From: a virus
Virus record (IMG/VR): IMGVR_UViG_3300024516_000004
Span: 1 to 36,944 of that record
Length of the DNA stretch: 36,944 nt
Direction: 5' to 3' (one strand)
Shown: in pieces, positions 3,499 to 21,733 of the stretch
Layout of the letters: every line of letters starts with the position of its first letter
How positions within the stretch are numbered: the stretch's first letter is position 1
Made by a program: the position numbers and the translations under genes
Notes under the pieces: generated by a model
What the model was told of the DNA's origin: nothing
The model's input: only the letters and a program-made list of their open reading frames with translations
Database searches by the model: none

Positions 3499-3657
3499 TT
3501 ACTTGCTTTTCTTTTCTTCTTTTACTTTAGTTACACATTTATTGTCGTGTGCAAATTCTAATTCTTTACCGCTTAACTCAACAATAGTACCTTTACGATG
3601 CATTTTTGAGTCTTTTTCTTCTGCCCGAAAGCCTTTATCTATAATGTATTTAGCCAT
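3499..3657 (-). CDS. Small basic protein of the head module
   Basis: The product is 52 aa and starts MAKYIIDKGFRAEEKDSKMH. ATG 3657 is preferred over the upstream in-frame ATG 3684 because an AAGG ribosome site lies nine bases before it, and homologous-looking small head proteins begin at such a MxKYxIxKGFR sequence. The C-terminus is very lysine-rich (VKEEKKSK). The gene sits directly after the major capsid gene, separated by a leader that contains an ANGGAN-loop hairpin (3679-3692). A role in head maturation or decoration is possible but only from position. Confidence 0.65.
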   Translation of the reverse strand: MAKYIIDKGFRAEEKDSKMHRKGTIVELSGKELEFAHDNKCVTKVKEEKKSK

Positions 3658-3678: not shown

Positions 3679-3692
3679 GGGCATCCTTGCCC
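3679..3692 (-). promoter_or_regulatory. ANGGAN hexaloop hairpin (CsrA/RsmA-site-like)
   Basis: On the leftward transcript, the sequence is GGGC-AAGGAT-GCCC: a perfect four-pair GC stem closing the hexaloop AAGGAT. The core CAAGGATG matches the established CsrA/RsmE preference for ANGGAN in a hexaloop closed by C-G. The actual ribosome site of the next gene (AAGG before ATG 3657) lies further downstream, so this loop is not simply its Shine-Dalgarno sequence. See the related hairpins at 15981-15992, 16214-16227 and 21547-21562. Binding by CsrA is inference. Confidence 0.5.
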
Positions 3693-3703
3693 TTATGTTA
3701 TTC

Positions 3704-4660
3704 CTATGAGGTTAATGCGGTGATGATACCGCTTGATTTCTCGTTACGTGCCTCAAGAGTGTACTCAGAAAGCAATTGAACGCGATCCGAATCACCATTT
3801 TTAGCAAGTGGATTTTCTCGGAAGTCTGCAAGAGTTGCTAAGCTCCACATACCCATATCAAGAACTAACATTGAAGTTTGAACTTGGAAACGGTTAGGGA
3901 TAACAGCCAATGAGCCAAAATCTGATACATAAATATCAATAGCCGTATGAACTGTCGCCGCATTACCATCAACAACACGCTGTGCTGCACCGGCAGTGCC
4001 ACCATTAACAATACCAGACATGGCTTGCTTAATAGTTGCGCCAACCATGATGGTATCAGGCTCTCCACCTTCGGTAAAAGCAGATGCTAATACAGTTTTA
4101 AGTTGAGCCTCGTCAAAAGCTCTGTTAGTGCCTGGTGTGTTTGTGTCCGTACCGTCACCAGTAGGAGCAACAGCACCAACACCGCCATCAAAGTTGGTTG
4201 CTAGCCATGACTCAACACCAGCACAAATACGTGCGGCTGCTGTTGAACCTGCAACTTTTGACTTGTTAGCTAAGATAACTTTTTCCATATCTCGCTTAAG
4301 CTCTTTAGTCTTAAGCATGATTTGATAGTCCATCTCATCACCACGGCCAGCACTTTCTACTTGGCGCTGTGTACGTGTTACTTGAGGAACTTTATCAGAT
4401 ATTTGGGTCTGATTACCTAAACGAACCGAAGGAGTCGGTGCGGTTGTAGTCGCATCGTTACCCTCGATTTGTGCGTTAGTGTCATCGGCTGCGGCTAAAT
4501 CTTGAGTTTGCCACTCGTGATTTGTTGCGTTAGCTGGGCCGCGAGAAATACCACTAATAAAAGGGGTAGCTGTTGGCGCGATGTTATAAATGTTATTGAT
4601 TAAATCTTCTCTGTTGCCGATAGCATCGTATGTGCTTACCGAATCTGCTGGAGTAGTCAT
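3704..4660 (-). CDS. Major capsid protein, SU10-type HK97 fold
   Basis: The product is 318 aa. The N-terminus shows the SU10-type capsid signature: REDLINNIYNIAPTATPFIS, then HEWQTQDLAAADDTNAQIEG at about residues 48-67, followed by TQISDKVPQVTRTQRQVE near 107-124. The C-terminal part, with IDIYVSDFGSLAVIPNRF and MLVLDMGMWSLA, is the usual HK97-fold A-domain and closing segment. It is encoded after the scaffold gene (12 bp gap), in the standard order portal, scaffold, capsid. It self-assembles into the procapsid around the scaffold. Confidence 0.9.
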   Translation of the reverse strand: MTTPADSVSTYDAIGNREDLINNIYNIAPTATPFISGISRGPANATNHEWQTQDLAAADDTNAQIEGNDATTTAPTPSVRLGNQTQISDKVPQVTRTQRQVESAGRGDEMDYQIMLKTKELKRDMEKVILANKSKVAGSTAAARICAGVESWLATNFDGGVGAVAPTGDGTDTNTPGTNRAFDEAQLKTVLASAFTEGGEPDTIMVGATIKQAMSGIVNGGTAGAAQRVVDGNAATVHTAIDIYVSDFGSLAVIPNRFQVQTSMLVLDMGMWSLATLADFRENPLAKNGDSDRVQLLSEYTLEARNEKSSGIITALTS

Positions 4661-4671
4661 GATAATTTACC

Positions 4672-5622
4672 TTACTTTAGTTGTCGTTGTAGCCTACGTA
4701 ATTGCAAGAAATCTTTATCAGATCCGGTCTTGTTAAACCGCTTCTGAACTACATCAATCTCACTTTGTATGCCGTTGTTGGCTTTCGCCCTTGGTTTAGT
4801 CGTAACCGGAGCAAGTCTAACTTTCTTTTCAATAGCAGCATTCTTATTGTTTAATGCTAGATACTTGGATGCGTTTAACATCGTCTGAAAATCATTCGCT
4901 TTAAAATTTGAGAAATCACTGTAACCGTTGTCTTTAGCGTAGCTTTCTAAAAGCTTCATATCAGACGCGTAAGCTTTGGTTGGTTTATCTGCCGCACCCC
5001 ATAAAGGGTTAGCACTCCATAACTTTTGTCGCTCATCGTTAACGTTAAAGCTAACCTTTGTTTCAGGCTTTACTTTATTGTCACTAACAAACTTTTTACG
5101 TTTAGCTAACTTCTCAGTGTATTCAATGTACTTTTCCGGTTCGTACTCTCGTAATTCAACAAGCGCCTCATCATTTAAAGACTCTTCGCTTATCATCGCC
5201 TCAAGTGTTGCTATGTGGCTATCAAACTTAGATTGCTTACCTTTAAATTCTTCAACATCTGCCTTAAATATTTTCACATCTTCGGCATGTTCTTGTGTTT
5301 TACGAGTATAATCAGCTTGCCTTAGTTGCCCTTGCTCTGTCTCGTAAACGTCTTTGAGATTTATTTCACGCCCTTGGTATTCAACGTAAAGATCCTCGCT
5401 CTCGTTTTCGTCTGTAGCTTGTGCAATTTCCGTTTCTGCTGGTTCTTCAATCTCCGCTGCAACTTCCTCATCAACTTTCGCCTCTTCGGTTATTACCTCT
5501 TCAATTGGTGCGTCTTTCGACACATCGACAGCCTCAGTATTTTCAGGTTGTTCAATGATTGATTCCTGATCACTCCTAGCTTGCTTTCTAATTTCTAAAT
5601 ATTCTTTTTCTATTGTTTGCAT
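4672..5622 (-). CDS. Scaffolding protein
   Basis: The product is 316 aa. Residues 1-75 are strongly acidic (runs such as EEVITEEAKVDEEVAAEIEE). The middle is helical and charged with coiled-coil character (about residues 85-190), and the C-terminus is basic (FNKTGSDKDFLQLRRLQRQLK), as expected for the capsid-binding tail of podoviral scaffolds. No catalytic protease motif is evident, so release rather than self-cleavage is likely. AAGGA precedes the ATG, eight bases upstream. It lies between portal and capsid genes, which fixes the assignment. Confidence 0.82.
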   Translation of the reverse strand: MQTIEKEYLEIRKQARSDQESIIEQPENTEAVDVSKDAPIEEVITEEAKVDEEVAAEIEEPAETEIAQATDENESEDLYVEYQGREINLKDVYETEQGQLRQADYTRKTQEHAEDVKIFKADVEEFKGKQSKFDSHIATLEAMISEESLNDEALVELREYEPEKYIEYTEKLAKRKKFVSDNKVKPETKVSFNVNDERQKLWSANPLWGAADKPTKAYASDMKLLESYAKDNGYSDFSNFKANDFQTMLNASKYLALNNKNAAIEKKVRLAPVTTKPRAKANNGIQSEIDVVQKRFNKTGSDKDFLQLRRLQRQLK

Positions 5623-5654
5623 TTTGTCAGTCCTTACGGTTATTGACGGTTAAG

Positions 5655-5939
5655 TTAAATAATATTTCTCAGCGTATGCTTTGCCTGTTCTAACATTGAC
5701 CTAGCATCCTTACCCTCTTTGATAGCTCTAGTGAACTTATCTAAGAATAACTTTAATACTTGCCCTTGGTTGTATGCTGATAGCCTTTCAGCCTCGCTAC
5801 TTAAATCAGTGCTTTCAAACCTGTTAAGTAAGTCACCACGACAAGATACAATGAACTCCTGTATTAATGGATCGTTAAGTAACTGGTCAGCACGTTGAGC
5901 TTTCTGTATTTGGTTTTTTAATTCTGTTTCGCTTCTCAA
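5655..5939 (-). CDS. Small helical protein downstream of portal (TTG start)
   Basis: The product is 94 aa, mostly helical and charged, with no recognised domain. The start codon is TTG at 5939-5937: the portal stop TGA overlaps it (TTGA), a GGTGG ribosome-like site lies eight bases upstream, and there is no in-frame ATG until residue 82. Codon use and the tight junction argue that it is real. Its position between portal and scaffold suggests an assembly role, for example a small scaffold partner, but nothing in the sequence proves this. Confidence 0.68.
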   Translation of the reverse strand: MRSETELKNQIQKAQRADQLLNDPLIQEFIVSCRGDLLNRFESTDLSSEAERLSAYNQGQVLKLFLDKFTRAIKEGKDARSMLEQAKHTLRNII

Positions 5940-7990
5940 TTTAAACCACCTGGTAAGTCAGTGTTGTTATCTAATTCCATCTTAGTAATAGCTAAAGCTG
6001 TTTCTTCGTCCTGCTCTCTGTGCTTCTGCTCTGCTGTAATATTAAACTGCCTTGAATCTTCTTGTAATGTTGCAACTTTAATCTGTGCATCACTCTGAGC
6101 TTTAGTTAAGAAAGCTTTTTGTTTAATCTCTTCGGCTTCGGCTAATGGATTTTGTAATTGTTGCATTTGCTCTTGTAACTGTAAGACCATTTGATTTAAT
6201 AGCTCGTTTTGTGCTTTCAATAATTCTTCTGGCTCTTCTGGATTGTTAAAGAATTCGTCCACTCTTGGGAATCCTAAACCGTCAGTAATGCGTTTCAATG
6301 TATTGTAAATATCAACTTCATCAGTAAGCGTTGAACCTTGCTGCTTAAGTTGTTGTTGAATAGCTAATAAACCTTGCAGGCTTTGTACTGACTTCTCATT
6401 GTTGCCAGCACCTAAACCAACGTTAGATTGAACATGATGGTTAAACTTCCATTGAGTAGGGTTAACGGTTAAAGCTTTGCCTAATACCCTGAACTCTGTT
6501 TGTGTATCTTGAAATCTTGATACTAGCCATGCTATGCCCTCGTACAATTTACGGACACCTGTCTCAGCATAGTTACGGGCGATCAATTCCATCTTCTCGT
6601 CGCCTTTAGCCTCGATACCATTAAATCTAGTTGCTGTCTCTTTGCCTATTGAGTCAGCATCTAAGCCTTGGTTGGCCATGTTAGTGCCGGTTGTTTGCGC
6701 TCTTGCTCCGTCTACATATTGAATTACTTGTAATGTACGGTCGCCAATATAAGGAATAACCAGAGGCATTACAGCATTCTGAGGCAGTATTTTAGTATCG
6801 TCATCTAAACGGATAATACCGTTAGTTCGTACTGTTAACAGGTCATCTAAGTCAACATCAGGATGCACAACGTTACGCGGATTGTTAACCATGTAAATAT
6901 TGTCATTCATGCCACGGACTAAGGCTGTTTTTTGTAACTGTGTCGGGTAAGTAATTTCTGCACGGCTTCTGCCAATAGCTTTATGAGGCATTAAGATTGC
7001 TGATAGTGAGGCATAAGGCACATGGTTAAAGTATTCGTTAACTAGAATCTTATTACCGGACATCATCACGTGTCTGCGCTCTGCAATTCCATCACCATCA
7101 AAATCAATCTTGACGTATAAGTCAGATATTTCTACAAACTCACTAGCCCAGTTGTTTATGGTTCCATCTGGATTATTGCCACCTTGGTCACGGTCGCGTA
7201 CTGCTTTAATATTTGAATTGCGGTTATCTTCTTCATCAACAGTTGATAGCATATCAATTAAGTCACGCTTAAATCCTTCTGCTAATAACTCACCGCGAGT
7301 CTTTCTAACTCTATCACCAACTAACTCAGCATCTTCTATGCTTGTGGCGCTACGTGTAATTAAGAATGATTCAGGCGGTATATTAAGAATGCAAACCTTT
7401 TTAGTTTCGCGTGTTACTTTAAATGTTAAATCCCAAACTCCGCTACCTTCTTCGGTTTCTTCTTGTCCTGTAATTTCTGACTTAGTTACACTTGGGTCGT
7501 TAAGGCTTTCAACAATAACGGATAGCTCGTCAGTATCAACGCCGGTAAACCTTACCTCATCAACTTCCTTTTGCTCATCAATGAAGTATTTAACAACGCC
7601 GTTCTTTTGAATCTCGGCACCCTTTAACCAGTCATGCCACATTTTAAATGAGTCTGGTTGATTGCGAATAATCCAGTTAACATACTTGGTTTTTTCTTCG
7701 GCTTCTTGGACTTCGGCAGGGTTATCAGTATTTGGTTGAAAGTCTACTACATCACCTGAACCATAAAAGATACGCATTAAGGCAGGCATATCAGACTCAA
7801 TTACATCTGCTATATCAGTGGAGACTACGCTTGATTGATTTGGTATTGCTGCGAATTCGCCTGACTTATCACCTAAATATGCTGCTAAGAATTTGGTATT
7901 CTCGCGCATAAACTCACCGCTATAAATAGCCGCTTGTTCTTCTGCTTGAGATAATAGCGAAACTAACTCACCTTCTGACATTTTAGGCAT
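5936..7990 (-). CDS. Portal protein, P22-like
   Basis: The product is 684 aa, within the range of long podoviral portals. The N-terminal part (SGELVSLLSQAEEQAAIYSG-like helix, then SVVSTDIADVIESDMPALMRIFYG at about 52-75) matches the portal core, followed by the wing/stem region with RKTRGELLAEGF and FVEISDLYVKIDFDGDGIAERR. The C-terminal 100 residues are a Gln/Glu-rich helical barrel-like tail. It forms the dodecameric vertex through which DNA is packaged. It is the first gene of the leftward virion operon, with a candidate TATAAT box 40 bp upstream. Two in-frame ATGs occur at residues 1 and 4; neither has a strong ribosome site. Confidence 0.88.
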   Translation of the reverse strand: MPKMSEGELVSLLSQAEEQAAIYSGEFMRENTKFLAAYLGDKSGEFAAIPNQSSVVSTDIADVIESDMPALMRIFYGSGDVVDFQPNTDNPAEVQEAEEKTKYVNWIIRNQPDSFKMWHDWLKGAEIQKNGVVKYFIDEQKEVDEVRFTGVDTDELSVIVESLNDPSVTKSEITGQEETEEGSGVWDLTFKVTRETKKVCILNIPPESFLITRSATSIEDAELVGDRVRKTRGELLAEGFKRDLIDMLSTVDEEDNRNSNIKAVRDRDQGGNNPDGTINNWASEFVEISDLYVKIDFDGDGIAERRHVMMSGNKILVNEYFNHVPYASLSAILMPHKAIGRSRAEITYPTQLQKTALVRGMNDNIYMVNNPRNVVHPDVDLDDLLTVRTNGIIRLDDDTKILPQNAVMPLVIPYIGDRTLQVIQYVDGARAQTTGTNMANQGLDADSIGKETATRFNGIEAKGDEKMELIARNYAETGVRKLYEGIAWLVSRFQDTQTEFRVLGKALTVNPTQWKFNHHVQSNVGLGAGNNEKSVQSLQGLLAIQQQLKQQGSTLTDEVDIYNTLKRITDGLGFPRVDEFFNNPEEPEELLKAQNELLNQMVLQLQEQMQQLQNPLAEAEEIKQKAFLTKAQSDAQIKVATLQEDSRQFNITAEQKHREQDEETALAITKMELDNNTDLPGGLN

Positions 7991-8030
7991 TAATAAAGCA
8001 CTCTAAGGATAGTTTGAATTTGTTTTACTT

Positions 8031-8052
8031 ATTATACATTGTTTGCTATGGT
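8031..8052. promoter_or_regulatory. Divergent promoter region between portal operon and rightward island
   Basis: The 114-bp divergent gap 7991-8104 contains a perfect leftward -10 (TATAAT on the minus strand, 8036-8031) with a poor -35; it would start transcription about 35 bases before the portal ATG. A weaker rightward pair, TTTACT (8024-8029) and TATGGT (8047-8052), is spaced by 17. The two signals overlap, so the directions could compete. The assignment rests on consensus matching by eye. Confidence 0.45.
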
Positions 8053-8068
8053 TATTGCATACCGTGAT

Positions 8069-8082
8069 TCATTGGTTAATGA
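8069..8082. promoter_or_regulatory. Candidate operator palindrome
   Basis: TCATT-GGTT-AATGA is a perfect inverted repeat with five-base arms, located between the rightward promoter candidate and the first island gene. Its size and position suit a dimeric repressor. No second copy was noticed. Confidence 0.3.
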
Positions 8083-8104
8083 CGGGTTTTACTGGGAAAT
8101 AAAC

Positions 8105-8401
8105 ATGTTAAAGTTTAAATTTTTTAATAAAGATAAGTCAGAAGAAGTTGATGTAAAAGTAGAGTCAGATAATAAATCAATGGATGACATTAGGGTTAAG
8201 GCAGATAAGGCTTGTTTAAAAACCTACAATAGCTCAGTTGTAAGCCACATTAAAGCTAAGCTAATGCTCCAGTACAAAGTAAGATCATCCAATCATATTT
8301 CCATGTGTACCATCTATCAAGAGGAAAATATACTAGTTGATTCTATCTGTGAGGACATAGCCAAAGAGATGGGTTTATTAAAAGAGGTAGGCAATGAATA
8401 A
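8105..8401 (+). CDS. Hypothetical protein, first gene of the rightward island
   Basis: The product is 98 aa, starting MLKFKFFNKDKSEEVDVKV. The ATG at 8105 is chosen over an upstream in-frame ATG at 8039 because a GGGA ribosome-like site precedes it and the upstream segment overlaps promoter signals. The protein is lysine- and glutamate-rich with a C-terminal helix (ENILVDSICEDIAKEMGLL). It overlaps the next gene by eight bases. No family is recognised. As the lead gene of an island antisense to the late genes, it is likely expressed early. Confidence 0.65.
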   Translation: MLKFKFFNKDKSEEVDVKVESDNKSMDDIRVKADKACLKTYNSSVVSHIKAKLMLQYKVRSSNHISMCTIYQEENILVDSICEDIAKEMGLLKEVGNE

Positions 8402-8663
8402 ATTCACACTACTAATCCATAACAAAGGTTGGAAGGTGCAAGATGCTTGTGATTATTGGGGTATACATTACGATACTTACAACAAACGCTGTAACTCTGT
8501 TAAGTTTCACAATCAATTAGAGAGTATGTGTTTAGGGCTAGAGGATAAAGGTAATGATGTAATATGGCGACCTGTTGATAGTCATAACGCTATAGCCGTA
8601 TATAACGAGGTTGCTAAGATGATGGAAAATACACCTACAACTTTCGAGGTTAAAACCAAATGA
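8394..8663 (+). CDS. Small helix-turn-helix-like protein
   Basis: The product is 89 aa. Residues about 10-40 (HNKGWKVQDACDYWGIHYDT then YNKRCNS) fit a Cro/XRE-like helix-turn-helix: a W-x-x-x-x-A-x-x-W-G-I turn followed by a recognition helix with Y-x-x-Y-x-K-R. The rest (HNQLESMCLGLEDKG) could be a supporting helix. It overlaps both neighbours (eight and four bases), so it is translationally coupled. A regulatory DNA-binding role inside the island is inferred; it could act at the palindrome at 8069-8082, but this is untested. Confidence 0.62.
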   Translation: MNKFTLLIHNKGWKVQDACDYWGIHYDTYNKRCNSVKFHNQLESMCLGLEDKGNDVIWRPVDSHNAIAVYNEVAKMMENTPTTFEVKTK

Positions 8664-8923
8664 AAACAGCAATATACATTGAAGATGGCATAGTTCAACT
8701 TGTTATCACTCCTGAGTCAGAGTTTGAAAAGAATGCTTTATCATCATTTGAGCAGAAAGAATTAGACGCCAAAGTATTTTCAGGTACGTTTTATGATTGT
8801 CGTGGTGGCTGGATTAGACAAACAGAGCATTATAGCTCACACATGATACACGATGAAAGCCGCGACAAGAGTATGATAATAACTTTAAGGGAAGATAAGG
8901 AGGTTAAATCAAATGAGCAATAA
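8660..8923 (+). CDS. Conserved small phage protein (MKTAIYIEDG type)
   Basis: The product is 87 aa. It begins MKTAIYIEDGIVQLVITPES, a start seen in a group of small phage proteins of unknown function, and includes GTFYDCRGGWIRQ. The predicted structure is mixed beta strands. It overlaps the previous stop by ATGA and the next start by 11 bases, with GGAGG upstream of the next gene inside its 3' end. No enzymatic residues stand out. Confidence 0.65.
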   Translation: MKTAIYIEDGIVQLVITPESEFEKNALSSFEQKELDAKVFSGTFYDCRGGWIRQTEHYSSHMIHDESRDKSMIITLREDKEVKSNEQ

Positions 8924-9110
8924 AGAAGGGTTAAAGACTGCGATATTATTAATCGACAATAGAAAGGCTGAGATCAAAAAGGATCTAGAGATATTAAATA
9001 AAGCTAAGAAGCTATTAGGGGATGATGCTGTGACTATCAAGTATGCAAACCTTGTTGATATTTCTTGTGAATTAACAATATTAAAAGGTGATATGGTGGA
9101 TTTACTATGA
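8913..9110 (+). CDS. Hypothetical small helical protein
   Basis: The product is 65 aa and predicted to be almost entirely helical with alternating charges (DNRKAEIKKDLEILNKAKKL), suggesting a short coiled-coil dimer. A strong ribosome site (AAGGAGG) lies 10 bases upstream of the ATG. It ends in an ATGA overlap with the following gene. Its function is unknown. Confidence 0.65.
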   Translation: MSNKEGLKTAILLIDNRKAEIKKDLEILNKAKKLLGDDAVTIKYANLVDISCELTILKGDMVDLL

Positions 9111-9463
9111 CTAACGAAATGAAATTACTCAGGGCTTTTATAGAAGCTAGTGGGTTTGATATTACAGACGTTCCGACACCTGAAAGCATCATTGAACGAG
9201 ACGAGTATATTAAACTTGGTTGTGCTTTTGATCCAAAGCTTGAATATGATTACAAAGTAACTAAGAAGCTAACTGAGACTATATCAGCAACCAAAATAGG
9301 TATTGACCCCCGTATAATAGAAAGACAAAACAATCGTGATGTTATCGTAGAAAAGCTAAAGGGTATTATCTTTATGGCGCTAAAAAAAGCAGGTAAGGAA
9401 CCAAAGAAAGACACAAGAATCATCATCAACCACCACATAAACGAGGCCATTAGAAACCTATGA
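9107..9463 (+). CDS. Hypothetical protein
   Basis: The product is 118 aa. A conserved-looking N-terminus (MKLLRAFIEASGFDITDVPTPES) is followed by a short beta/loop part with FDPKLEYDYKVTKK and a helical C-terminus. It has no cysteine pairs or membrane segments. It is joined by ATGA overlaps to both neighbours (9107-9110 and 9460-9463). No family is recognised; it belongs to the co-translated island. Confidence 0.65.
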   Translation: MTNEMKLLRAFIEASGFDITDVPTPESIIERDEYIKLGCAFDPKLEYDYKVTKKLTETISATKIGIDPRIIERQNNRDVIVEKLKGIIFMALKKAGKEPKKDTRIIINHHINEAIRNL

Positions 9464-9711
9464 ACAAATATGAAATAGTAGACGGATTAGGGGTATCGCG
9501 AGAGGTATCAGCTAGCTACTTCAAAGTAGAGGGTGAGTATATTGTGTTTTATGTTAGTACCCTTTTTGTAGGTGCACTCGAGGATATAACCACACATAAG
9601 CCAGTCTATCTATGCTCTAACATTCTCGAGGTGATATTACTTGAAGATAAAGATATGGCATCATTTTTCGATGAAGTATTAAAAAGGCAGGTAACTAACC
9701 ATGAAACTTAA
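9460..9711 (+). CDS. Hypothetical protein
   Basis: The product is 83 aa with a beta-rich, hydrophobic middle (YIVFYVSTLFVGALEDI) and an acidic C-terminal helix (LEDKDMASFFDEVLK). The middle is not long or uniform enough to be a confident membrane span. It overlaps the upstream gene by ATGA, and its end overlaps the next small gene by 11 bases. Its function is unknown. Confidence 0.6.
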   Translation: MNKYEIVDGLGVSREVSASYFKVEGEYIVFYVSTLFVGALEDITTHKPVYLCSNILEVILLEDKDMASFFDEVLKRQVTNHET

Positions 9712-9868
9712 ACTTACACCACAATGCGTATGGCACAAATGGTTTGCTTGGCATCCTGTTAGAATACAAGGTGATGAGCTTGTATGGCTTGAGTATGTGC
9801 AACGCTGGCATGCTAAAACTGCCGCTTGCCCTTTACAATATAGAGGTTTGCATGATGAAGATGTATAA
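9701..9868 (+). CDS. Tryptophan-rich 55-aa phage protein
   Basis: The product is 55 aa with a striking aromatic composition: VWHKWFAWHPV at residues 10-20, then VWLEYVQRWH. Small phage proteins with the W-x-K-W-F-A-W-x-P-V motif followed by G-x-x-V-W-L-E are recurrent in tailed phages and remain of unknown function. The ATG lies within the end of the preceding gene, with AGG upstream. The stop lies inside the next gene. The distinctive motif makes it a confident gene despite its size. Confidence 0.7.
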   Translation: MKLKLTPQCVWHKWFAWHPVRIQGDELVWLEYVQRWHAKTAACPLQYRGLHDEDV

Positions 9869-10037
9869 CAACTTTAAGTGTTCAAAGTCTAACGTGATAT
9901 TTGAGAGGCTAATAGATAATAGTATCAAGGCGCTTGATTGTGACTGTGGTGCTGATGCCATCAGGACACTATCAGCACCTAAGTATTTTGGTAATAGCTG
10001 TGGTAAGTCTCCGTCAACTAGTAATAGGAAGGGTTAA
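9852..10037 (+). CDS. FmdB-like zinc-ribbon remnant, 61 aa
   Basis: The product is 61 aa. The pattern YNNFKC, VIFERL, LDCDCGADAIRTLSAPKYFG (residues 5-10, 15-20, 28-47) aligns by eye with FmdB-type regulators (Y-F-x-C-x-x-C-x-x-x-F-E then C-x-x-C-G then R-x-LSAP). The first zinc knuckle is degraded: only C10 remains and the partner is replaced (CSKSN). The second is CDCG rather than CPxCG, so zinc binding is doubtful. ATG 9852 is chosen because AGGT precedes it; a longer upstream frame lacks a ribosome site. Confidence 0.62.
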   Translation: MMKMYNNFKCSKSNVIFERLIDNSIKALDCDCGADAIRTLSAPKYFGNSCGKSPSTSNRKG

Positions 10038-10038
10038 G

Positions 10039-10197
10039 ATGATTGCATATATATTATTAAGCTACGTGTTTATGTTTGTGTGGTGCGTTGTGGTGTTATT
10101 CATTAAAGACCTTGACACTAAAGAGGTGTTTAAGATTTGGGTATTATCACCTTTATCAATGCCTTTGATTTTAGTGTGTAAGTTTATTAACTGGTGA
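10039..10197 (+). CDS. Small two-span membrane protein
   Basis: The product is 52 aa. Residues 1-22 (AYILLSYVFMFVWCVVVLFI) and about 33-50 (IWVLSPLSMPLILVCKFI) are predicted membrane segments joined by a charged loop (KDLDTKEVFK). The ATG follows a GGAAGGG ribosome site directly after the previous stop. Possible roles include membrane anchoring or superinfection interference, but nothing specific is shown. Confidence 0.6.
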   Translation: MIAYILLSYVFMFVWCVVVLFIKDLDTKEVFKIWVLSPLSMPLILVCKFINW

Positions 10198-10202
10198 TTG
10201 AT

Positions 10203-10451
10203 ATGAATGATTTTATGGACAAAGAACAGCGAATTGAACATATGTTATCTTGTGCCATTGACGAGATTCGCCGCCTTAATAAACAAATAGAAACTTATAG
10301 GTACGCCCTTGCTGAGTCTAACGAATGGTTAATTGCCAGTGAGGGTATAGACCTTTGTTATCATATGGATAGTGAGCCAAAGGATAAGCAGTTAGTTAGG
10401 GAGCTGTTAGATAACATTATCAGCGAGCCTAAACAGCGACAGGGTGAATAA
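10203..10451 (+). CDS. Hypothetical coiled-coil protein
   Basis: The product is 82 aa (from ATG 10203; an alternative GTG at 10194 would add three residues and overlap the previous stop as GTGA). The N-terminal half (EQRIEHMLSCAIDEIRRLNK) is a long amphipathic helix and the remainder is acidic. It belongs to the group of small phage proteins with a helical heptad start and a charged tail. No function is assigned. The start choice is uncertain because neither candidate has a good ribosome site. Confidence 0.55.
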   Translation: MNDFMDKEQRIEHMLSCAIDEIRRLNKQIETYRYALAESNEWLIASEGIDLCYHMDSEPKDKQLVRELLDNIISEPKQRQGE

Positions 10452-10452
10452 T

Positions 10453-10623
10453 ATGGATACCTTTAAAGTTATTGCTGTACTTGTTGCGATTGCAATATTT
10501 ACATGGGGGTTTTGGCCTAACAGGAAAGCCAACACTATTAAAAAGATAAGAATTAAAGCTTATTCAAGCAGGTATTACAGTTGGTTTGCTTTTGTTGATA
10601 TGGAGCGTGAAGGTTTAGTTTAA
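10453..10623 (+). CDS. Small membrane protein converging on terminase
   Basis: The product is 56 aa. Residues 4-21 (FKVIAVLVAIAIFTWGFW) form one membrane segment, followed by a basic tail (NRKANTIKKIRIKAYSSRYY). It starts one base after the upstream stop, and its own TAA overlaps the terminase stop on the other strand by four bases. It closes the rightward island. A topology with a short outside N-terminus or a cytoplasmic basic tail is likely. Its function is unknown. Confidence 0.55.
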   Translation: MDTFKVIAVLVAIAIFTWGFWPNRKANTIKKIRIKAYSSRYYSWFAFVDMEREGLV

Positions 10624-12074
10624 ACAACGTTAGCCGCACCATAGTTTAACTTCTTGCGCTTTTTCTTTAGTGGTGGCACGAACATCAGCATCATTAAAGA
10701 ATCAGCCATACCGGGGGAGTCTATCCCTTGGCTTTTCATTTCCTGCTTATTCATTAATTGCTGTAATCCGTTGCTGTTATTCTTTCTTGGTATTCTACAT
10801 AGCTCAGACCTTAGCGCTGGTATGCTTTCTATACCGTCACTATCAAAGCTTATCATCTCACTTGGGTCAACATATTCTCCTTTAACAACGCACCGGTAAG
10901 TGTTGTAGCATCTATCAGCTAACAGGATATAGTATTGCGCTCTGTTATTTTTAAATACTTCGGCGTTCGTTAGGTCGTTCTTCTTATCACCATAGCCTGA
11001 TTGATATATTTTCTCTGCGTTGTCCTGCCCCTTACCAGATAGTGAACCCTTGAACATTTGATACTTAATACTTGTTCCATCTAGGTTATTAGATACTTGA
11101 CGCTTAAGACCTGCACCCATTCCGTCACCATCCCACACAAACCAATCAGCTTTATGATCTCTTGCTAAATTAGTGGCCCAATCACAACCTACATCAATTT
11201 CACCCGTGTTCTTTTCGTAGATGTGTTGAACAATTGAGCCGTGACGCATAGCATAACCTTTGTTGTCGTTACCGGTATCGCTTGGGTCATGTGCTGCCAC
11301 CCTTACACCTAGCGGTTTGAATACTTCTTTTAACTTATCTATCTTATGAGCATCTACGCAAGCATCGAACCATTCAGCTTTAATAATTGAATCCTCGACC
11401 TCATCATTAAACTTACCTTCCCATATCCAATCGTATTTGGCGCGTGATAGGTTATGATAATCCCATACCCTTAATGTTTCTTGCTCTGAATTCCACCACG
11501 GATTGTCTCGCCAGTTAACAACAATGATTAAATGTAGGTCATCTTCATAATAACCATTACGCTCTAGCTCTCTAAGGTATGGCACTATAAAACGCTGTGA
11601 GAATGGATCGGCACTTGATTGAGGGTTAGCACTAAACCAACACTCCGCGCCTGGGTTTCTTAGTATGGTAGGCAATAGTTTATCGATAGATGCTTGGCTC
11701 ATTGTCTGAGCTTCTTCAAACCATGAATATTTATAGCCTTGAGCTGATTGAATAGAGTTAGGGTTTCTTGATGCCCCTTTGTACGAAGTTACCGCACCGT
11801 CTGGTGATATAATTCTTTTCTCTTGTACGTTCCAACCCTCAAGCATTAAACGGTCGTTAATTGAACCCTCGAATACTCTGTGTACTGAATCACTGATAGA
11901 GTCTTGAAATTCACGCAAGCAATATATATCTGCTTTCTCTGTTGCCATCTTAAAAGTTAAAGCGTCACCAATACCGATAGACTTACCTGAACCCCTACCG
12001 CCTATGGCTATTTTTAGTTGCTTCTTCTTTGTTATGAATGGTTCTAGCTTTTTATTAATCTTGAGGAGTGGCAT
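10620..12074 (-). CDS. terL: Terminase large subunit (headful packaging motor)
   Basis: The product is 484 aa. The ATPase half has Walker A GGRGSGKS (residues 25-32), Walker B with catalytic Glu in YSWFEEAQ (116-123) and a coupling motif SANPQS (148-153). The nuclease half has acidic residues in AAHDPSDTGND (D263/D266) and WDGDGMGAG (D315/D317), as in Sf6/P22-type terminases. That group packages by headful from concatemers, which agrees with the circularly permuted map. The start overlaps the small-subunit gene by 20 bases. The gene ends in a four-base convergent overlap with the rightward island. Confidence 0.93.
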   Translation of the reverse strand: MPLLKINKKLEPFITKKKQLKIAIGGRGSGKSIGIGDALTFKMATEKADIYCLREFQDSISDSVHRVFEGSINDRLMLEGWNVQEKRIISPDGAVTSYKGASRNPNSIQSAQGYKYSWFEEAQTMSQASIDKLLPTILRNPGAECWFSANPQSSADPFSQRFIVPYLRELERNGYYEDDLHLIIVVNWRDNPWWNSEQETLRVWDYHNLSRAKYDWIWEGKFNDEVEDSIIKAEWFDACVDAHKIDKLKEVFKPLGVRVAAHDPSDTGNDNKGYAMRHGSIVQHIYEKNTGEIDVGCDWATNLARDHKADWFVWDGDGMGAGLKRQVSNNLDGTSIKYQMFKGSLSGKGQDNAEKIYQSGYGDKKNDLTNAEVFKNNRAQYYILLADRCYNTYRCVVKGEYVDPSEMISFDSDGIESIPALRSELCRIPRKNNSNGLQQLMNKQEMKSQGIDSPGMADSLMMLMFVPPLKKKRKKLNYGAANVV

Positions 12075-12363
12075 TAATAAACTCTACTGTCCACTTACCG
12101 TCAGTCTTAAACGTTTCACCGTCAGCGTTTTTAATTTCTACTGATTTTTCATCAGGAAGGTATTTTTTAAGGAGCGCTAAACGTGTTGAAGTTGCTGAAT
12201 TTAATCGAGATACCATGACACCATCAAGCTCTAATGCCTCATCCTCTAGTTTTTCAAGGTTATCAAAGATGTGCGATAGCTTACCCCTCTCGGCTAAGTA
12301 TCGTTTTAATTCCTCTCTGTTTATCTCTCTTCGCTTTGCAGCGGTATTAGCTTTTGAAGCCAT
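12055..12363 (-). CDS. terS: Terminase small subunit
   Basis: The product is 102 aa. It is a charged helical protein (KRREINREELKRYLAERGKL, then LEDEALELDGVMVSRLNSAT) ending in KWTVEFINATPQD. Size, composition and a 20-base overlap with the large subunit fit a DNA-recognition small terminase. It would bind the packaging initiation site, often located within or near its own gene in P22-type phages. No separate pac site is evident by eye. Confidence 0.78.
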   Translation of the reverse strand: MASKANTAAKRREINREELKRYLAERGKLSHIFDNLEKLEDEALELDGVMVSRLNSATSTRLALLKKYLPDEKSVEIKNADGETFKTDGKWTVEFINATPQD

Positions 12364-12399
12364 AGTGTCATTCCTATTAAGGTTCTTGACTGGTTAAAA

Positions 12400-12462
12400 T
12401 TACTTTTTCTTTTTGTGCGTCTTGGTTCGTTGACCACGTTTAGGTTTTGTTTTATGTACCAT
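12400..12462 (-). CDS. Tiny lysine-rich peptide, 20 aa
   Basis: This 20-aa ORF (MVHKTKPKRG then QRTKTHKKKK) fills the 100-bp gap before the terminase small subunit. Its ATG is three bases after the stop of the preceding gene, so it could be translated by reinitiation. Eleven of 20 residues are Lys, Arg or His. It has no good ribosome site and could be chance, although similar basic mini-proteins occur in virion modules. Confidence 0.35.
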   Translation of the reverse strand: MVHKTKPKRGQRTKTHKKKK

Positions 12463-12465
12463 GAT

Positions 12466-12888
12466 TTATACCAGTGTAAATAATGTAGCTTGTACGTCCA
12501 GTGTAAATGTTTCAGTATCGGCCAATGTCAAGCTTGAGCCTCTATCATAAAAACTGATTAATGGGTCTGCTGGGCTTGTTGGCGTATCGTTATATAATAC
12601 TACATATCTGAATGGGCCAATTGAGCCACCAGAAGCAGTAAATACAACATCAGCTGTTGGTACTAGTGAATATGTGCCGCTTGTTTGCGTTGAGCTTGTA
12701 ATAGCCACTGCTGTGCCACCTGCTGTATATCCATTACCTGCCGCTATTTCAGTTAGGTTAGCTTTAACGCTATTTGTGGCTAATGGCGTGGTATTTGTTA
12801 GTAAAAACTTTAACGTGTTAGCGCTTAAGTCATGTACACCATTGGCTAAGTCTGCCACTGTTTGATTGAATTTCTGATAGCTTGCCAT
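12466..12888 (-). CDS. Conserved virion-associated protein (MASYxKFN type)
   Basis: The product is 140 aa. The sequence pattern SYQKFNQTVADLANGVHDLS, LKFLLTNTTPLATN, LTEIAAGNGYTAGG, GPFRYVVLYNDT and ISFYDRGSSLTL is typical of a beta-rich phage protein family found near head and packaging genes, usually annotated only as structural. It precedes terminase in a late operon and has no signal peptide. A head decoration or appendage function is plausible but unproven. Confidence 0.75.
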   Translation of the reverse strand: MASYQKFNQTVADLANGVHDLSANTLKFLLTNTTPLATNSVKANLTEIAAGNGYTAGGTAVAITSSTQTSGTYSLVPTADVVFTASGGSIGPFRYVVLYNDTPTSPADPLISFYDRGSSLTLADTETFTLDVQATLFTLV

Positions 12889-12889
12889 G

Positions 12890-13891
12890 TTATTTATCCG
12901 TCCAGTTAGTTATTACAGGTGTTTTATCACCCCATAAAGTAACAACGCTAGGCTTATCAGTCCAGATGTTACCAGTATTGCTAAATTCTATATCCGTTCC
13001 CTGTATTATATAACTTCCTGCTTCAATTGTCATACCCCTTGTAATTGCAAAGTTTATTGCAGTTCCAGTTAATGCGTATGAGTCTGTATTTACCTGTGTT
13101 TTTATTGCTGTTTGTATTAGTGTACCGGTTAATAAATACGAGCCTGGGTCTATTGTTATTGTTTGTGATGTAGGAGGATCGACAAGTATTATGTCTGTGC
13201 CGGTATAAGCGTAAGCGCCTGTTGATATAATCTCTCTATAATCTGCCTTAAGATTTACATCAGTACCAGTTAAAGAATAACTTCCGCTATCTAGTGTTAC
13301 TGTTATACCGCTACCACCTATATCAATCCATGCGCTACCAGGCTCACCAAGTGCTGCTGTTGGCATGTTTACGCCTGTAGCATCATTCCCACTTATAGTA
13401 TCGGTAATGACAGGTGTTCCGGCTGTGTGAACTGAATCGTTTGGCCTCCAATCGTTAGCTGTTCCGTTTGTTATGTATTCTATCTGACCTGATAAGGACA
13501 CTTGCTGATCAAACCCACCTATGGCATTAGGGGTATATCCTAATGTTGATGATATAGTGCCTATTACAGCACCATCCAACCTAACCTCGTACGATGAAGA
13601 GCTAGTTCTATCTAACTCTAAAACAAACCAAACATTTAGCGCTGGCTGTGTGTATCCTGTCGATACTCTGTGGTTTTGAGTGCTATTCCCTAGCCTGACG
13701 TTAATGTCATTTGAGCCGACCTCTAACAATGACAAAAATCCATCATCACGACCTGTTAGTCTATAAGTTCCTGCGGCGTTACCTGAAAAGCCCCTAGCCC
13801 TTATTGTTAGCACTTCACCAACAGCCAAATCCATTTGACTATCCATCGCACAATAATCATCGTTACCATCGAATTCTAATACAATAGTCAT
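12890..13891 (-). CDS. LamG-like appendage protein with two tandem-repeat tracts
   Basis: The product is 333 aa. Residues 1-145 look like a concanavalin/LamG jelly-roll: LEFDGNDDYCAM, NVWFVLELDRTSSSSYEVRL and IGGFDQQVSLSGQIEYI. Residues 203-302 hold five imperfect repeats of about 20-25 aa sharing G(S/A)Y-x-L-T-G-T-x-I (near 203, 225, 250, 270 and 292). The last 24 residues contain a ten-residue period of W-x-D-K (W310, W320, W330). Such proteins are usually virion surface appendages that bind glycans. It overlaps the upstream 111-aa gene by ATGA. The repeat tract could vary in copy number. Confidence 0.72.
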   Translation of the reverse strand: MTIVLEFDGNDDYCAMDSQMDLAVGEVLTIRARGFSGNAAGTYRLTGRDDGFLSLLEVGSNDINVRLGNSTQNHRVSTGYTQPALNVWFVLELDRTSSSSYEVRLDGAVIGTISSTLGYTPNAIGGFDQQVSLSGQIEYITNGTANDWRPNDSVHTAGTPVITDTISGNDATGVNMPTAALGEPGSAWIDIGGSGITVTLDSGSYSLTGTDVNLKADYREIISTGAYAYTGTDIILVDPPTSQTITIDPGSYLLTGTLIQTAIKTQVNTDSYALTGTAINFAITRGMTIEAGSYIIQGTDIEFSNTGNIWTDKPSVVTLWGDKTPVITNWTDK

Positions 13892-14223
13892 GACGTGTAA
13901 TTCTTAGGGTTTATATACCATTCGCTGTTGAGGTCGTCTTTCATGGTTTTATATTCGCTTACTTTTAACTCGTATGAGCTATAAAGGATTGCTTGAACGC
14001 ATTGAGCAGGGTCAGGCTCACCCCTGCATAAATAAAGTAAATAGTTCTCAGCTTGGCATAGTGTTTTAGGTAGGGTTACATTTTCATTTTCATCAACAAC
14101 ATACCCGTCAATCTGGCGCTTTGTTCTGTCTAAGTTGAATATACCCTTATTAAATCGGGTGTTTAATTCTATTACTGAATCGGGAATAGTTGACATTAAG
14201 AGTATTAACCGGTTGTGTGCCAT
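13888..14223 (-). CDS. Hypothetical protein of the late region
   Basis: The product is 111 aa. The C-terminal two thirds is helical with TLCQAENYLLYLCRGEPDPA and VSEYKTMKDDLNSEWYINPKN. It has no signal peptide; the first residues (LILLMSTIPDS) are hydrophobic but short. AAGGG precedes the ATG. It is coupled by ATGA to the LamG-like gene and may assist it, for example as a connector or chaperone, which is inference from adjacency. Confidence 0.65.
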   Translation of the reverse strand: MAHNRLILLMSTIPDSVIELNTRFNKGIFNLDRTKRQIDGYVVDENENVTLPKTLCQAENYLLYLCRGEPDPAQCVQAILYSSYELKVSEYKTMKDDLNSEWYINPKNYTS

Positions 14224-14244
14224 TGTATAACCCTTATTGTGATG

Positions 14245-14451
14245 TTATTTTTTAGAATCTTTCTTGAAGTCGCGATAGTGTTTGATAAATAATAGCGTGA
14301 GTATACCAAGGCCGATTATTTTACCAACTCCGTCAACTAAAGGTTCGCCCCAATCTAACCAGAAAGGACTTGAAAAGAATCCTGCTAATGCGATATGAGT
14401 TTTTGGGCTATTCGCTACGTCTGCCGCTATCTGCTTTAGTTCTTCGCTCAT
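14245..14451 (-). CDS. Small holin-like membrane protein
   Basis: The product is 68 aa. It has an amphipathic N-terminus (SEELKQIAADVANSPKTHIA), a semi-hydrophobic segment around 22-34 and a clear membrane span at about 42-58 (GKIIGLGILTLLFIKHY), then a basic tail (RDFKKDSKK). Size and charge distribution are typical of phage holins or antiholins. It overlaps the upstream membrane-protein gene by ATGA and lies in the lysis region with an endolysin and a second holin candidate. Confidence 0.62.
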   Translation of the reverse strand: MSEELKQIAADVANSPKTHIALAGFFSSPFWLDWGEPLVDGVGKIIGLGILTLLFIKHYRDFKKDSKK

Positions 14452-14909
14452 TGCTTTTTACTCGACGCTGTTTTACACATTGTATCACACGCTTTGTTGC
14501 TATTAAAACCATGTAAGAAAGCCAAAGGATGTTGGTTATTATCTCTACTGCTTCCATGTGTTAATAGTCTCATTGAGATAGCGATTAGTTGGATAATAAT
14601 TATTATACCAGAAATAACGTTATATAAATCAGGTGAATAATAATTTACCCATAAGTAAAAGCCTAAAACGTTTACAGGGACTAGTACAAATGCGCAAATA
14701 GCAGCAATTTTATATTTGTATTGAAGGAACATGCCAGAAATGAGATTTAGCGCAGCCGTTAACGAGTAGTAAAATGTTGCACTTGTGTCAATTATGAATA
14801 GGCTATAAATTACTTTTGCTGAAATAAAAATAAAAGCGCCCTCTCGGGTCGCCTTATTAATTAATAGCAATACACAAATGAATAATATTGCCCAATCCAT
14901 GTAAATCAT
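14448..14909 (-). CDS. Multi-span membrane protein of the lysis region
   Basis: The product is 153 aa. Four to five hydrophobic segments (about 5-17, 24-40, 47-63, 67-90 and 97-113) are followed by a polar C-terminal tail of 40 residues (SSRDNNQHPLAFLHGF, then CDTMCKTASSKKQ). It starts in a TAATG overlap with the 42-aa gene and ends in ATGA with the small holin-like gene. It matches no lysis protein I can name. A different frame over its last third encodes another possible small membrane protein (14408-14557), so the exact C-terminus deserves caution. Confidence 0.62.
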   Translation of the reverse strand: MIYMDWAILFICVLLLINKATREGAFIFISAKVIYSLFIIDTSATFYYSLTAALNLISGMFLQYKYKIAAICAFVLVPVNVLGFYLWVNYYSPDLYNVISGIIIIIQLIAISMRLLTHGSSRDNNQHPLAFLHGFNSNKACDTMCKTASSKKQ

Positions 14910-15037
14910 TAGCTGGTTCTAGCTCTGGCGACAGCTCTAGCTTTTGCTAATTTCTTGGCTTTTTCTTTCACTTCATCTTCCTCGACTTGTGCCGCTGTGC
15001 GTCTTGGTCTTGTTTTTCCGTGTCCGCCTACTGTCAT
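14909..15037 (-). CDS. Small basic helical protein, 42 aa
   Basis: The product is 42 aa: an N-terminal MTVGGHGKTRPRRTAA segment followed by a charged helix (VEEDEVKEKAKKLAKARAVA) and an Arg-rich end. An AAGGA ribosome site lies eight bases upstream, and its stop overlaps the next start as TAATG, both strong evidence of a real gene. A candidate extended -10 promoter lies 34 bases upstream. The function is unknown; the basic helix suggests nucleic-acid or membrane-surface binding. Confidence 0.6.
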   Translation of the reverse strand: MTVGGHGKTRPRRTAAQVEEDEVKEKAKKLAKARAVARARTS

Positions 15038-15070
15038 GGTGTTATTCCTTGGTTGGGTTGGTTTGGCTCT

Positions 15071-15079
15071 ATTATATCA
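15071..15079 (-). promoter_or_regulatory. Extended -10 promoter candidate (leftward)
   Basis: The minus strand reads TGATATAAT, a perfect extended -10 (TGnTATAAT), just after the holin stop and 34 bases before the 42-aa gene. The -35 region is poor, which extended -10 promoters tolerate. It could drive the genes from here to terminase. Confidence 0.45.
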
Positions 15080-15448
15080 CTATTTACCTTTGATTGTATT
15101 TGCATAGTTAACACCGAATGAGGCGCTTACTATTACACCGAATAAGGTTGTGATAGGTAAGAATAAATCAGTCCATTTACTTGTGGCTGCTGCTATTGCC
15201 TTTGCTTCACCATAGCCAAAGCTTTCGCATATTAGTAAGAATGCGGCCACGACTATATAAAATATATAAAGCCCGGTAACAGCCTTGGATAAATCACGCC
15301 TCATTATTCCATTAGGATCAAGCGCTTTAATCATAACAACTTTAGCCTCCGCGCTTTCTTGTTCTGTTTCTATCCACTCGGACGCGATGTTTTCAATTGA
15401 TTTAATAACGCCAGCACCTGAGAATAAAGCCTTAATTGCACCAATCAC
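15080..15448 (-). CDS. Holin, 3TM (GTA-holin-like)
   Basis: The product is 122 aa. An amphipathic N-terminal region (IGAIKALFSGAGVIKSIENI) and an acidic stretch are followed by DPNGIMRRDLSKAV, a membrane span at 56-76 (TGLYIFYIVVAAFLLICESF) and a second at 94-114 (DLFLPITTLFGVIVSASFGV). This is the organisation of the three-TM gene-transfer-agent holin family. The start is GTG at 15448, chosen for the AGGGG ribosome site six to seven bases upstream; the overlapping ATG is in a frame that stops at once. The endolysin gene is just upstream. Confidence 0.78.
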   Translation of the reverse strand: MIGAIKALFSGAGVIKSIENIASEWIETEQESAEAKVVMIKALDPNGIMRRDLSKAVTGLYIFYIVVAAFLLICESFGYGEAKAIAAATSKWTDLFLPITTLFGVIVSASFGVNYANTIKGK

Positions 15449-15449
15449 A

Positions 15450-15521
15450 TTAAACCCCTGTAAATTCGTTGTTGATAGTTAAATAATCCCAATCTTCTTC
15501 AATCCATTTGTTATCGTTCAT
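15450..15521 (-). CDS. Tiny acidic ORF between endolysin and holin, 23 aa
   Basis: This 23-aa ORF (MNDNKWIEED then WDYLTINNEFTGV) fills the gap between endolysin and holin. AAGGG lies seven bases before its ATG, and its stop is one base from the holin GTG. The signals suggest translation and coupling to holin expression, possibly as a leader peptide. No function can be read from its sequence. Confidence 0.42.
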   Translation of the reverse strand: MNDNKWIEEDWDYLTINNEFTGV

Positions 15522-15531
15522 AATTTAACCC

Positions 15532-15957
15532 TTATAAAGTTATAGCAATTTGAATGTGTGGTAAATCCCAACCGGTAAAGTCTGAGCTACCAAACTGGCC
15601 GCCCCAGTATAAATCAATTGTGATCTTACCTTCTTTCTTTAATCGATTTGCTGTGGACATTATAACACTTGCTACCATTGATAGGTGATGTACTGACCAG
15701 CTAGCCGCACCGTCAACGTAAGCGTAAAAATCTAAAGCCTTGCCTGATTGATGATAAGACTTATTTTCATAGCCGTCACACTGAGAAGCGCCCTCGTCAC
15801 ATAGTTGTTTTTGCCTTGCCGCTGTTCTTAATCCACCATCTCCGGGTATACCAAAATCGATAGGGCTGTTTTTAATTGCCTCTGTGAATATGATTATTAA
15901 ATCAGGATGTACGCCTTGCATTCTTTTAACGCTGCTCTTGCTAAATTTATAACACAT
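15532..15957 (-). CDS. Endolysin, M15 family L-alanyl-D-glutamate-type peptidase
   Basis: The product is 141 aa. It shows the M15 signature: RMQGVHPDLI (11-21), GLRTAARQKQL (42-52), the zinc-binding SYHQSGKALDF with H69 and D76, and WGGQF followed by DLPHIQI with D131 and H134. It would cut the peptide stem of peptidoglycan at the end of infection. There is no signal peptide, so release by the downstream holins is expected. ATG 15957 is preferred because GGAG sits nine bases upstream, the same spacing as at the duplicated leader before 16192; in-frame ATGs at 15963 and 15972 are alternatives. Confidence 0.9.
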   Translation of the reverse strand: MCYKFSKSSVKRMQGVHPDLIIIFTEAIKNSPIDFGIPGDGGLRTAARQKQLCDEGASQCDGYENKSYHQSGKALDFYAYVDGAASWSVHHLSMVASVIMSTANRLKKEGKITIDLYWGGQFGSSDFTGWDLPHIQIAITL

Positions 15958-15967
15958 GTTCATTATC

Positions 15968-16006
15968 TCCATTGGTTAGAGCCGTCCTTGGCACTGGCTA
16001 GTTAAA
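15968..16006 (-). repeat. Duplicated leader element, copy A, with ANGGAN hairpin
   Basis: This intergenic leader before the endolysin repeats the one at 16203-16238. Both share TTTAACTAGC, CAAGGACG and CTCTAACCAATGGAGA on the leftward strand. In this copy the loop AAGGAC is closed by GCC/GGC (15981-15992). The left arm differs from copy B, with a matching change in the right arm, so pairing is kept. The closing C-G and ANGGAN loop resemble CsrA/RsmA sites. Confidence 0.6.
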
Positions 16007-16192
16007 TCAATCCATCAAATCTTTATCGGGATCAACTGAGTTTTCAAGGTTCTTGCCGATAGTCTTGCAACTTTTAGCAATCGCGCTTTCTTCGTTTGTG
16101 ATACTGCCGCCTAAAGTGACTGTATCTTTAACTATGGCAACGGGTAAATCTATTGCCACGCCCACTACTGCTTTCAATAAACTTCCAAACAT
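16007..16192 (-). CDS. Conserved small phage protein of the lysis region
   Basis: The product is 61 aa, starting MFGSLLKAVVGVAIDLPVAI. The N-terminal part is hydrophobic or amphipathic and is followed by VTLGGSITNEESAIAKSCKT and an acidic end (SVDPDKDLMD). Short proteins with this FGSLxKAVVGVxxDxPV start and TLGG motif are widespread in phages, without a known role. ATG 16192 is chosen because GGAG lies nine bases upstream; an earlier in-frame ATG at 16207 would overlap that site. Confidence 0.68.
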   Translation of the reverse strand: MFGSLLKAVVGVAIDLPVAIVKDTVTLGGSITNEESAIAKSCKTIGKNLENSVDPDKDLMD

Positions 16193-16202
16193 AATTTTAT
16201 TC

Positions 16203-16238
16203 TCCATTGGTTAGAGCGTCCTTGCTCAGTGCTAGTTA
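16203..16238 (-). repeat. Duplicated leader element, copy B, with ANGGAN hairpin
   Basis: This leader between the SSB stop and the 61-aa gene is the partner of 15968-16006. Its hairpin GAGC-AAGGAC-GCTC (16214-16227) has four perfect pairs and the same AAGGAC loop. Retention of the loop while both stem arms changed argues for selection on RNA structure rather than on sequence alone. Confidence 0.6.
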
Positions 16239-16703
16239 AAAAGGCGGTTCGTCGTTGTTATATACGGGTTGGTGCTGCGCTTGTGCTGGTGGTGGGTTAT
16301 GAAATCCGCCTTGACCTTGTTGTTGATTAGGCTGTGCTTTCTGCTGAAAACCTGAACCTTGTTGCTGTGTGTTCTGATTATATTGCGGCGCTTGTTGTTG
16401 GCCCGTATAAGCATAACCAAGTTTAGCATCGAGTAATTCAATAGAATATTTGCCTTCATACTCTTGTATTAATTCACCGGTAGCAGTTAACTCAATAACA
16501 GCGTTTTCAATTAATACATCATTCATGTACTGAATTAATTTAGGGTTTCTAGCAAATAATACGGCGCTGTAATTGGTCCACTGTTTTTCTTTTGTTTTGG
16601 GATTGTAAACTTGTACGCCTAACCTAACGCCAAAGCCTGTTGATTCACCTGCCTGGAATTGGTTGGCTGATTTGTTAAGTTTACCGGTTATTACTGTTGT
16701 CAT
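16236..16703 (-). CDS. ssb: Single-stranded DNA-binding protein
   Basis: The product is 155 aa. Residues 1-110 form an OB-fold-like domain (VITGKLNKSANQF, GFGVRLGVQVYNPKTKEKQW, IELTATGELIQEYEGKYSIE). A Gln/Gly/Pro-rich linker of about 35 residues follows, ending in an acidic tip NNDEPPF, which resembles the DDIPF tail used to recruit partner proteins. AGGAG precedes the ATG. It lies with an annealing protein and would protect single strands during replication and recombination. Confidence 0.88.
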   Translation of the reverse strand: MTTVITGKLNKSANQFQAGESTGFGVRLGVQVYNPKTKEKQWTNYSAVLFARNPKLIQYMNDVLIENAVIELTATGELIQEYEGKYSIELLDAKLGYAYTGQQQAPQYNQNTQQQGSGFQQKAQPNQQQGQGGFHNPPPAQAQHQPVYNNDEPPF

Positions 16704-21261: not shown

Positions 21262-21325
21262 TATATTTTCCCCATAAGGTGACATTTAAGTACGTTGGTT
21301 GGTAAGCCAAGGTACCTCTATATAA

Positions 21326-21678: not shown

Positions 21679-21733
21679 TTATCTATTATTCAGTCACCAC
21701 AACTAAACAACAATTTACATGTACTATTGTACG

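Follow-up and report, generated by a model that had tools for sequence, protein, structure and literature searches.

In gammaproteobacteria, CsrA regulates gene expression globally at the post-transcriptional level. High-affinity sites of the Csr/Rsm system present an ANGGAX hexaloop directly on a stem, in which N and X are looped out and variable (PMC4005645; PMC7652899), and the high-affinity site of RsmZ is closed by a C-G pair (PMC4005645). Hairpins of this geometry occur in IMG/VR virus record IMGVR_UViG_3300024516_000004, of which the whole stretch of 36,944 nucleotides was analysed (the window). Comparison with relatives demonstrates that an ANGGAN loop on a G+C-rich stem, with C or A as the 5' closing base, is kept directly 3' of capsid genes and of genes for proteins resembling single-strand DNA-binding protein (SSB), while the stem and the N positions drift. 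We interpret the two corresponding hairpins of the window, at 3679 and 16214, as probable binding sites for a CsrA-type (RsmA-type) protein on phage mRNA, read by the CsrA of the host, and hold this with moderate confidence because of the enrichment of the loop, its geometry and closing base, its agreement with published sites, its recurrence, the presence of CsrA in the likely host genus and a scrambled-loop control.

The stem-loops bound with high affinity by CsrA/RsmE, such as those of the hcnA leader and SL2 of RsmZ (PMC4005645), likewise carry ANGGAN directly on the stem, with variable N and X and frequent C-G closing. The phage sites differ in being predicted, in lying on mRNA after capsid and SSB genes and in being closed by A-U in some cases. 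Repression of the glgC type combines a hairpin with a GGA in the Shine-Dalgarno sequence (PMC7652899); the window hairpins at 16214 and 15981 have both, whereas the capsid site lacks a GGA in the next Shine-Dalgarno, and the phage hairpin is tied to the upstream gene and not to one target. Sequestering RNAs of the CsrB/RsmZ type are comparable in that the GGA loops of the phage could titrate CsrA. However, the phage has one to three sites per genome, in mRNA, which is far fewer than in CsrB; the CsrB-like RNAs of Colwellia contain 18 and 22 GGA in 330 nt. An accumulation of GGA loops in one noncoding RNA, as in a sponge RNA, was not found, the phage sites being single and between genes. Phages that carry csrA genes (PMC7366521, PMC11879866) are also linked to the Csr system, but here the link would consist of RNA sites, a phage-encoded CsrA having been detected in neither the window nor 15 relatives. 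Our search of the open-licence literature returned csrA genes in phages and Csr control of CRISPR, and nothing on phage mRNAs with conserved CsrA sites. Hairpins with UUCG loops behind phage capsid genes occupy the same position and are interchangeable with ANGGAN hairpins in close relatives; their loop sequence differs, UUCG being a stability loop without the CsrA motif.

A sequence-only reading of the window had proposed four ANGGAN hairpins, and all are present, on the minus strand. GGGC-AAGGAT-GCCC (3679..3692) stands immediately 3' of the capsid gene and GAGC-AAGGAC-GCTC (16214..16227) immediately 3' of the SSB-like gene; a weak duplicate, GCC-AAGGAC-GGC (15981..15992), precedes the endolysin gene; and GTCGT-AAGGAC-GCGAC (21547..21562), in which a U-G pair closes the loop, lies in noncoding sequence. 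The 15981 and 16214 sites are not independent: they belong to a duplicated leader with a common 17-nt element, GCTCTAACCAATGGAGA, even though the stems differ between the copies. The designation as late-gene leaders was partly right, given that the hairpins at 3679 and 16214 follow the capsid gene and the putative SSB gene, respectively. The local folding of the leaders that the same reading had called for gave loop-closing pair probabilities of 0.99 at 3679 and 0.82 at 21547, as opposed to 0.33 at 15981 and 0.07 at 16214, the last value being lowered by competing pairings. What supports the hairpins strongly is the comparison with relatives, not the window itself.

The clade around the window supplied 217 non-redundant intergenic regions between co-directional genes, delimited by simple open reading frame (ORF) calls, and hexaloop hairpins with a stem of at least 4 pairs were collected from them. 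ANGGAN accounts for 13 of the 51 sense hexaloop hairpins, the next commonest pattern for 3, and the antisense strand yielded none. The expectation from 100 dinucleotide shuffles is a mean of 0.15 and a maximum of 1, which corresponds to an enrichment of about 90-fold. The exact hexaloop geometry is found in 13/15 GGA-bearing loops, a count that takes in four AGGA/CGGA tetraloops in which the outer A-U pair may be open. The 5' closing base of the ANGGAN loops is C in 10 and A in 3 cases and never G or T (n=13), compared with C in 8, A in 6 and G or T in 24 of the other hexaloops (n=38; difference p 5e-5); the C-G closing pair (10/13) is accordingly preferred, not absolute.

In an alignment of 18 distinct hairpins, columns A5, G7, G8 and A9 (loop A1 and GGA3-5) are invariant and the N2 and N6 columns vary; several relatives have C, T or G at N2, and position 6 is never G. 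The stem columns are paired in 98.6% of cells, with all four pairs altered on both sides, a count that is partly circular, as the hairpins were chosen for having stems, and that illustrates rather than proves covariation. Judged by their sequences, the phage sites vary where the published Csr/Rsm rule permits and are fixed elsewhere. The resemblance to CsrA/RsmA sites suggested by the sequence-only reading is well supported by comparison, in the fixed A1 and GGA, the free N2 and N6, the hexaloop length and the C or A closing. A hexaloop directly on the stem is indicated at 3679 by sequence and folding, and at 16214 by sequence and conservation, though the local fold competes.

The capsid protein was used as query to fetch 80 relatives; in most of them a hairpin separates the capsid stop codon from the start of the following gene, and many more distant ones have one too. 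The loops at this position are UUCG, GNRA-like and others in the wider relatives, and AAGGAC, AAGGAT, AAGGAA, ATGGAT, ACGGAC and AGGGAA in the clade around the window, where the stems under ANGGAN loops include GGGC, GAGC, GGGGA, GGCGC and AGCAC. Across a capsid tree of 50 proteins, ANGGAN occurs in 22, with altered stems and constant A and GGA, UUCG in 9, and another loop or none in 19. The tree requires 8 loop changes, at least 6 of which are forced by well-supported branches, and two relatives with nearly identical flanks (L010 and L017) differ in their post-capsid loop. At least one site is present in 12/12 sampled records of the 73-100% capsid-identity band; no ANGGAN site was found in G009, G010, G012 and G020 (65-69% capsid identity). 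A post-capsid hairpin, often with a UUCG loop, also recurs in widely diverged phages including prophages (distant relatives L085-L218).

The other ANGGAN hairpins (G006, G008, G013, G014, G017 and window 16214) lie directly 3' of Q-rich genes. The window gene (16236..16703, minus strand) encodes a putative SSB with a Q-rich tail ending in EPPF; its relatives L411-L414 match the PHROG for single strand DNA binding protein (phrog_44), and a search for PDB relatives returned none. In the orthologue L411, GAGC-AAGGAC-GCTC is kept while the flanks and the next gene differ. Members of a second SSB-like type end in DDDIPF-like tails, the usual SSB tip, and two other phages with this type, L426 and L462, carry GCCC-AAGGAC-GGGC and GCC-AAGGAT-GGC, respectively, after the gene; most other relatives of this type have no ANGGAN hairpin there. 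The SSB-like genes with the hairpin fall into three dissimilar types. G006 and G017 have no ANGGAN after the capsid gene and do have it after the SSB gene. Conservation of loop and stem in relatives, set beforehand as a test of the sequence-only reading, was therefore observed at both the capsid and the SSB position. The proposed control of capsid-linked and lysis genes has become less certain, as the hairpins follow capsid and SSB genes whatever gene comes downstream and the hairpin preceding the endolysin gene is a weak copy.

In controls beyond the clade, the loop was found in 1/153 regions of distant relatives, that one (L140) being a refetched clade member from the same contig as L008, and in 0/241 regions of prophage loci, 0/282 from 800 kb of Colwellia chromosome and 0/62 from phages infecting Pelagibacter, Methylophilales and Flavobacterium (n=4). 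Isolate phages that infect gammaproteobacteria (n=9) gave 1/142 regions (Pseudomonas phage AH02) and 1/55 hexaloops, so that a general property of gammaproteobacterial phages is unsupported. The loop is likewise not a host terminator loop, having never been seen as one in the 800 kb of Colwellia, and a lone Colwellia ANGGAN hairpin (L248:16335) was rejected as a CsrB RNA. Matches to GGGCAAGGACGCCC in a scan of viral contigs were mostly coding chance hits (102/120); the co-directional intergenic ones numbered 10 sense and 2 antisense, some in other phages, and the scrambled loop GGGCAGAGACGCCC gave 2 sense and 3 antisense, with no sense bias. On the sense strand between a stop and the next start, GGGCAAGGACGCCC was seen in other uncultured phages at L263:9263, L288:9027, L294:9854, L307:3614 and L329:6305.

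Among phages with a named bin, the nearest belongs to a Colwellia metagenome-assembled genome (MAG; capsid 80%). Its G+C content is 0.388, compared with 0.384 for the window and 0.367 for a Colwellia chromosome, and Colwellia-like bacteria are probably the hosts of these uncultured marine phages. CsrA is present in 21/21 genomes searched of this likely host genus, so that the lack of CsrA which the sequence-only reading had named as refuting does not apply to the genus, although the host is assigned from a single MAG bin. One genome of the genus (G029:C74) also contains two GGA-rich CsrB-like RNAs (L402, L404), about 800 nt apart and below the Rfam cut-off.

In the mechanism that we propose, a dimer of host CsrA would dock on the ANGGAN loop, and the docked hairpin would protect or insulate the upstream capsid or SSB message, our first choice because the hairpin follows these genes whatever is next. 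At some sites CsrA may also be held beside the following ribosome site, as at glgC, and may repress the next gene. The Shine-Dalgarno GGA lies 16-17 nt from the loop GGA at 16214 and 15981 and none is present at 3679 (AAGGC), so that bridging by the dimer would, by analogy, fit the former two sites and not the capsid site of the window. Titration of CsrA is possible as an additional effect, as the mRNAs for capsid and SSB are presumably plentiful. The data do not separate upstream protection, repression of the next gene and titration, of which protection is the most likely. The broader scenario, in which a marine phage lineage adopted host CsrA as a trans-acting factor, with docking hairpins behind capsid and SSB genes, protected or insulated messages and a partly titrated Csr network, is offered tentatively. 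The hairpins suggest that these phages use or soak up a global host regulator. If the conserved hairpins behind capsid and SSB genes do dock CsrA, they would offer a case, open to direct test, in which a phage exploits or depletes an RNA regulator of its host. The pattern also supplies a simple sequence rule for finding further cases.

Several observations weigh against binding by CsrA. Close relatives swap the capsid-site loop for UUCG or others, and this replaceability by UUCG is the chief argument against a strict CsrA role; G006 and G013 replace the capsid-site loop yet retain ANGGAN after SSB. Local folding of 16214 in silico prefers another pairing. The host is assigned from one MAG bin, and the nine isolate gammaproteobacterial phages should meet CsrA yet are without the module.

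The first rival explanation is a generic hairpin behind strongly expressed genes, which would block 3'-to-5' decay or act as a weak terminator and tolerate ANGGAN beside UUCG and GNRA-like loops with no protein reader. We regard this as unlikely, though worth serious consideration. The wide occurrence of the capsid-position hairpin with many loops, and the switching of loop types between close relatives, speak for it. It leaves unexplained the roughly 90-fold enrichment of a single hexaloop pattern, in which A1 and GGA are constant, N2 and N6 vary and the closing base is C or A, and the absence of ANGGAN in distant relatives that have the hairpin. Most ANGGAN stems are also without a T-run directly after them: at the window sites the stem is not followed by the U-run of an intrinsic terminator, the next letters being ATTAATTTT, TAACCAAT and TCTAACC, and a few relatives carry a short T-run.

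It is rather improbable that the loop is read by some other RNA-binding protein, or by a nuclease, from either phage or host. The signal is restricted to a single phage clade plus a small number of other phages, as a phage-encoded reader predicts, but no candidate was found, and the pattern matches the known CsrA site in detail. RegB-like nucleases prefer GGAG, which the absence of G at position 6 of the aligned hairpins speaks against. That the loop offers ribosomes a Shine-Dalgarno-like AAGGA, as a standby or decoy site, is very improbable: AAGGA is indeed the most common loop core, but N2 changes to C, T or G, position 6 again excludes G, the GGA does not extend to other loop lengths and the sites possess their own Shine-Dalgarno further down. 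Chance with local duplication, the main alternative of the sequence-only reading, has next to no credibility for the clade and for the 3679 and 16214 positions, given the sense-only enrichment in non-redundant intergenic regions of relatives and the scrambled-loop control, although ANGGA is not enriched within the window (196 matches vs 211 expected), two of three sites are one duplication, and chance could account for 15981 and 21547.

The copies of GCTCTAACCAATGGAGA lie at 15966-15982 and 16201-16217 on the minus strand. One of the rival pairings at 16214 is CUCUA/UGGAG, which would mask the Shine-Dalgarno, and a CsrA-driven switch is conceivable from the sequence because this pairing and the GGA hairpin would be mutually exclusive. 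The arrangement is not conserved in L411, and a search for the exact duplicated-leader pattern gave no match. The Shine-Dalgarno concerned, ATGGAG (16202..16207, minus strand; read from sequence), belongs to a 66-aa gene with likely start ATG 16192, and its GGA lies 16 nt from the loop GGA of the 16214 hairpin; the 66-aa protein had no match in viral contigs. The weak site at 15981 precedes the endolysin gene (15532..15972, minus strand; phrog_465 endolysin, E 1.7e-37), whose start may be internal (ATG 15957).

The record (36.9 kb) is probably complete, because a 99-bp repeat stands at both ends, and encodes capsid, scaffold, portal, terminase, an Erf-like annealing protein, an HNH endonuclease and endolysin. 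Its first 25 kb had no near DNA match among named phages, and no named capsid protein exceeds 46% identity to that of the window. The major capsid protein gene (3704..4660, minus strand) matches phrog_1328 major head protein (E 3.2e-97). The next gene after the 3679 hairpin is small (3499..3657, minus strand) and starts at ATG 3657, not at ATG 3684 inside the hairpin; its ATGGCTAAATA-like start is kept in L002-L005, L020 and L084.

Membership of the 21547 hairpin in the group is doubtful; it is kept as AAGGAT in one relative, L393. The surrounding region, 21286-21590 on the minus strand, is an ORF-free stretch of about 300 nt that lies upstream of the gene for the HNH endonuclease and is 80.6% identical in G011 (L393). 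The 448-nt stretch here has a better predicted fold than its shuffles (z -2.7) and no matching Rfam family; an Rfam search of the window gave no match above chance. It is possibly a phage noncoding RNA or an intron-like element. At 21603-21689, likewise on the minus strand, a long hairpin with a T-run, AAGGTTTAGTAAGAATTTCTGG...CCAGAGATTCCTACTAAGCCTTTTTT, has counterparts in G001 (85% identity) and G002 (76%) in which both arms have changed; it is a candidate conserved terminator.

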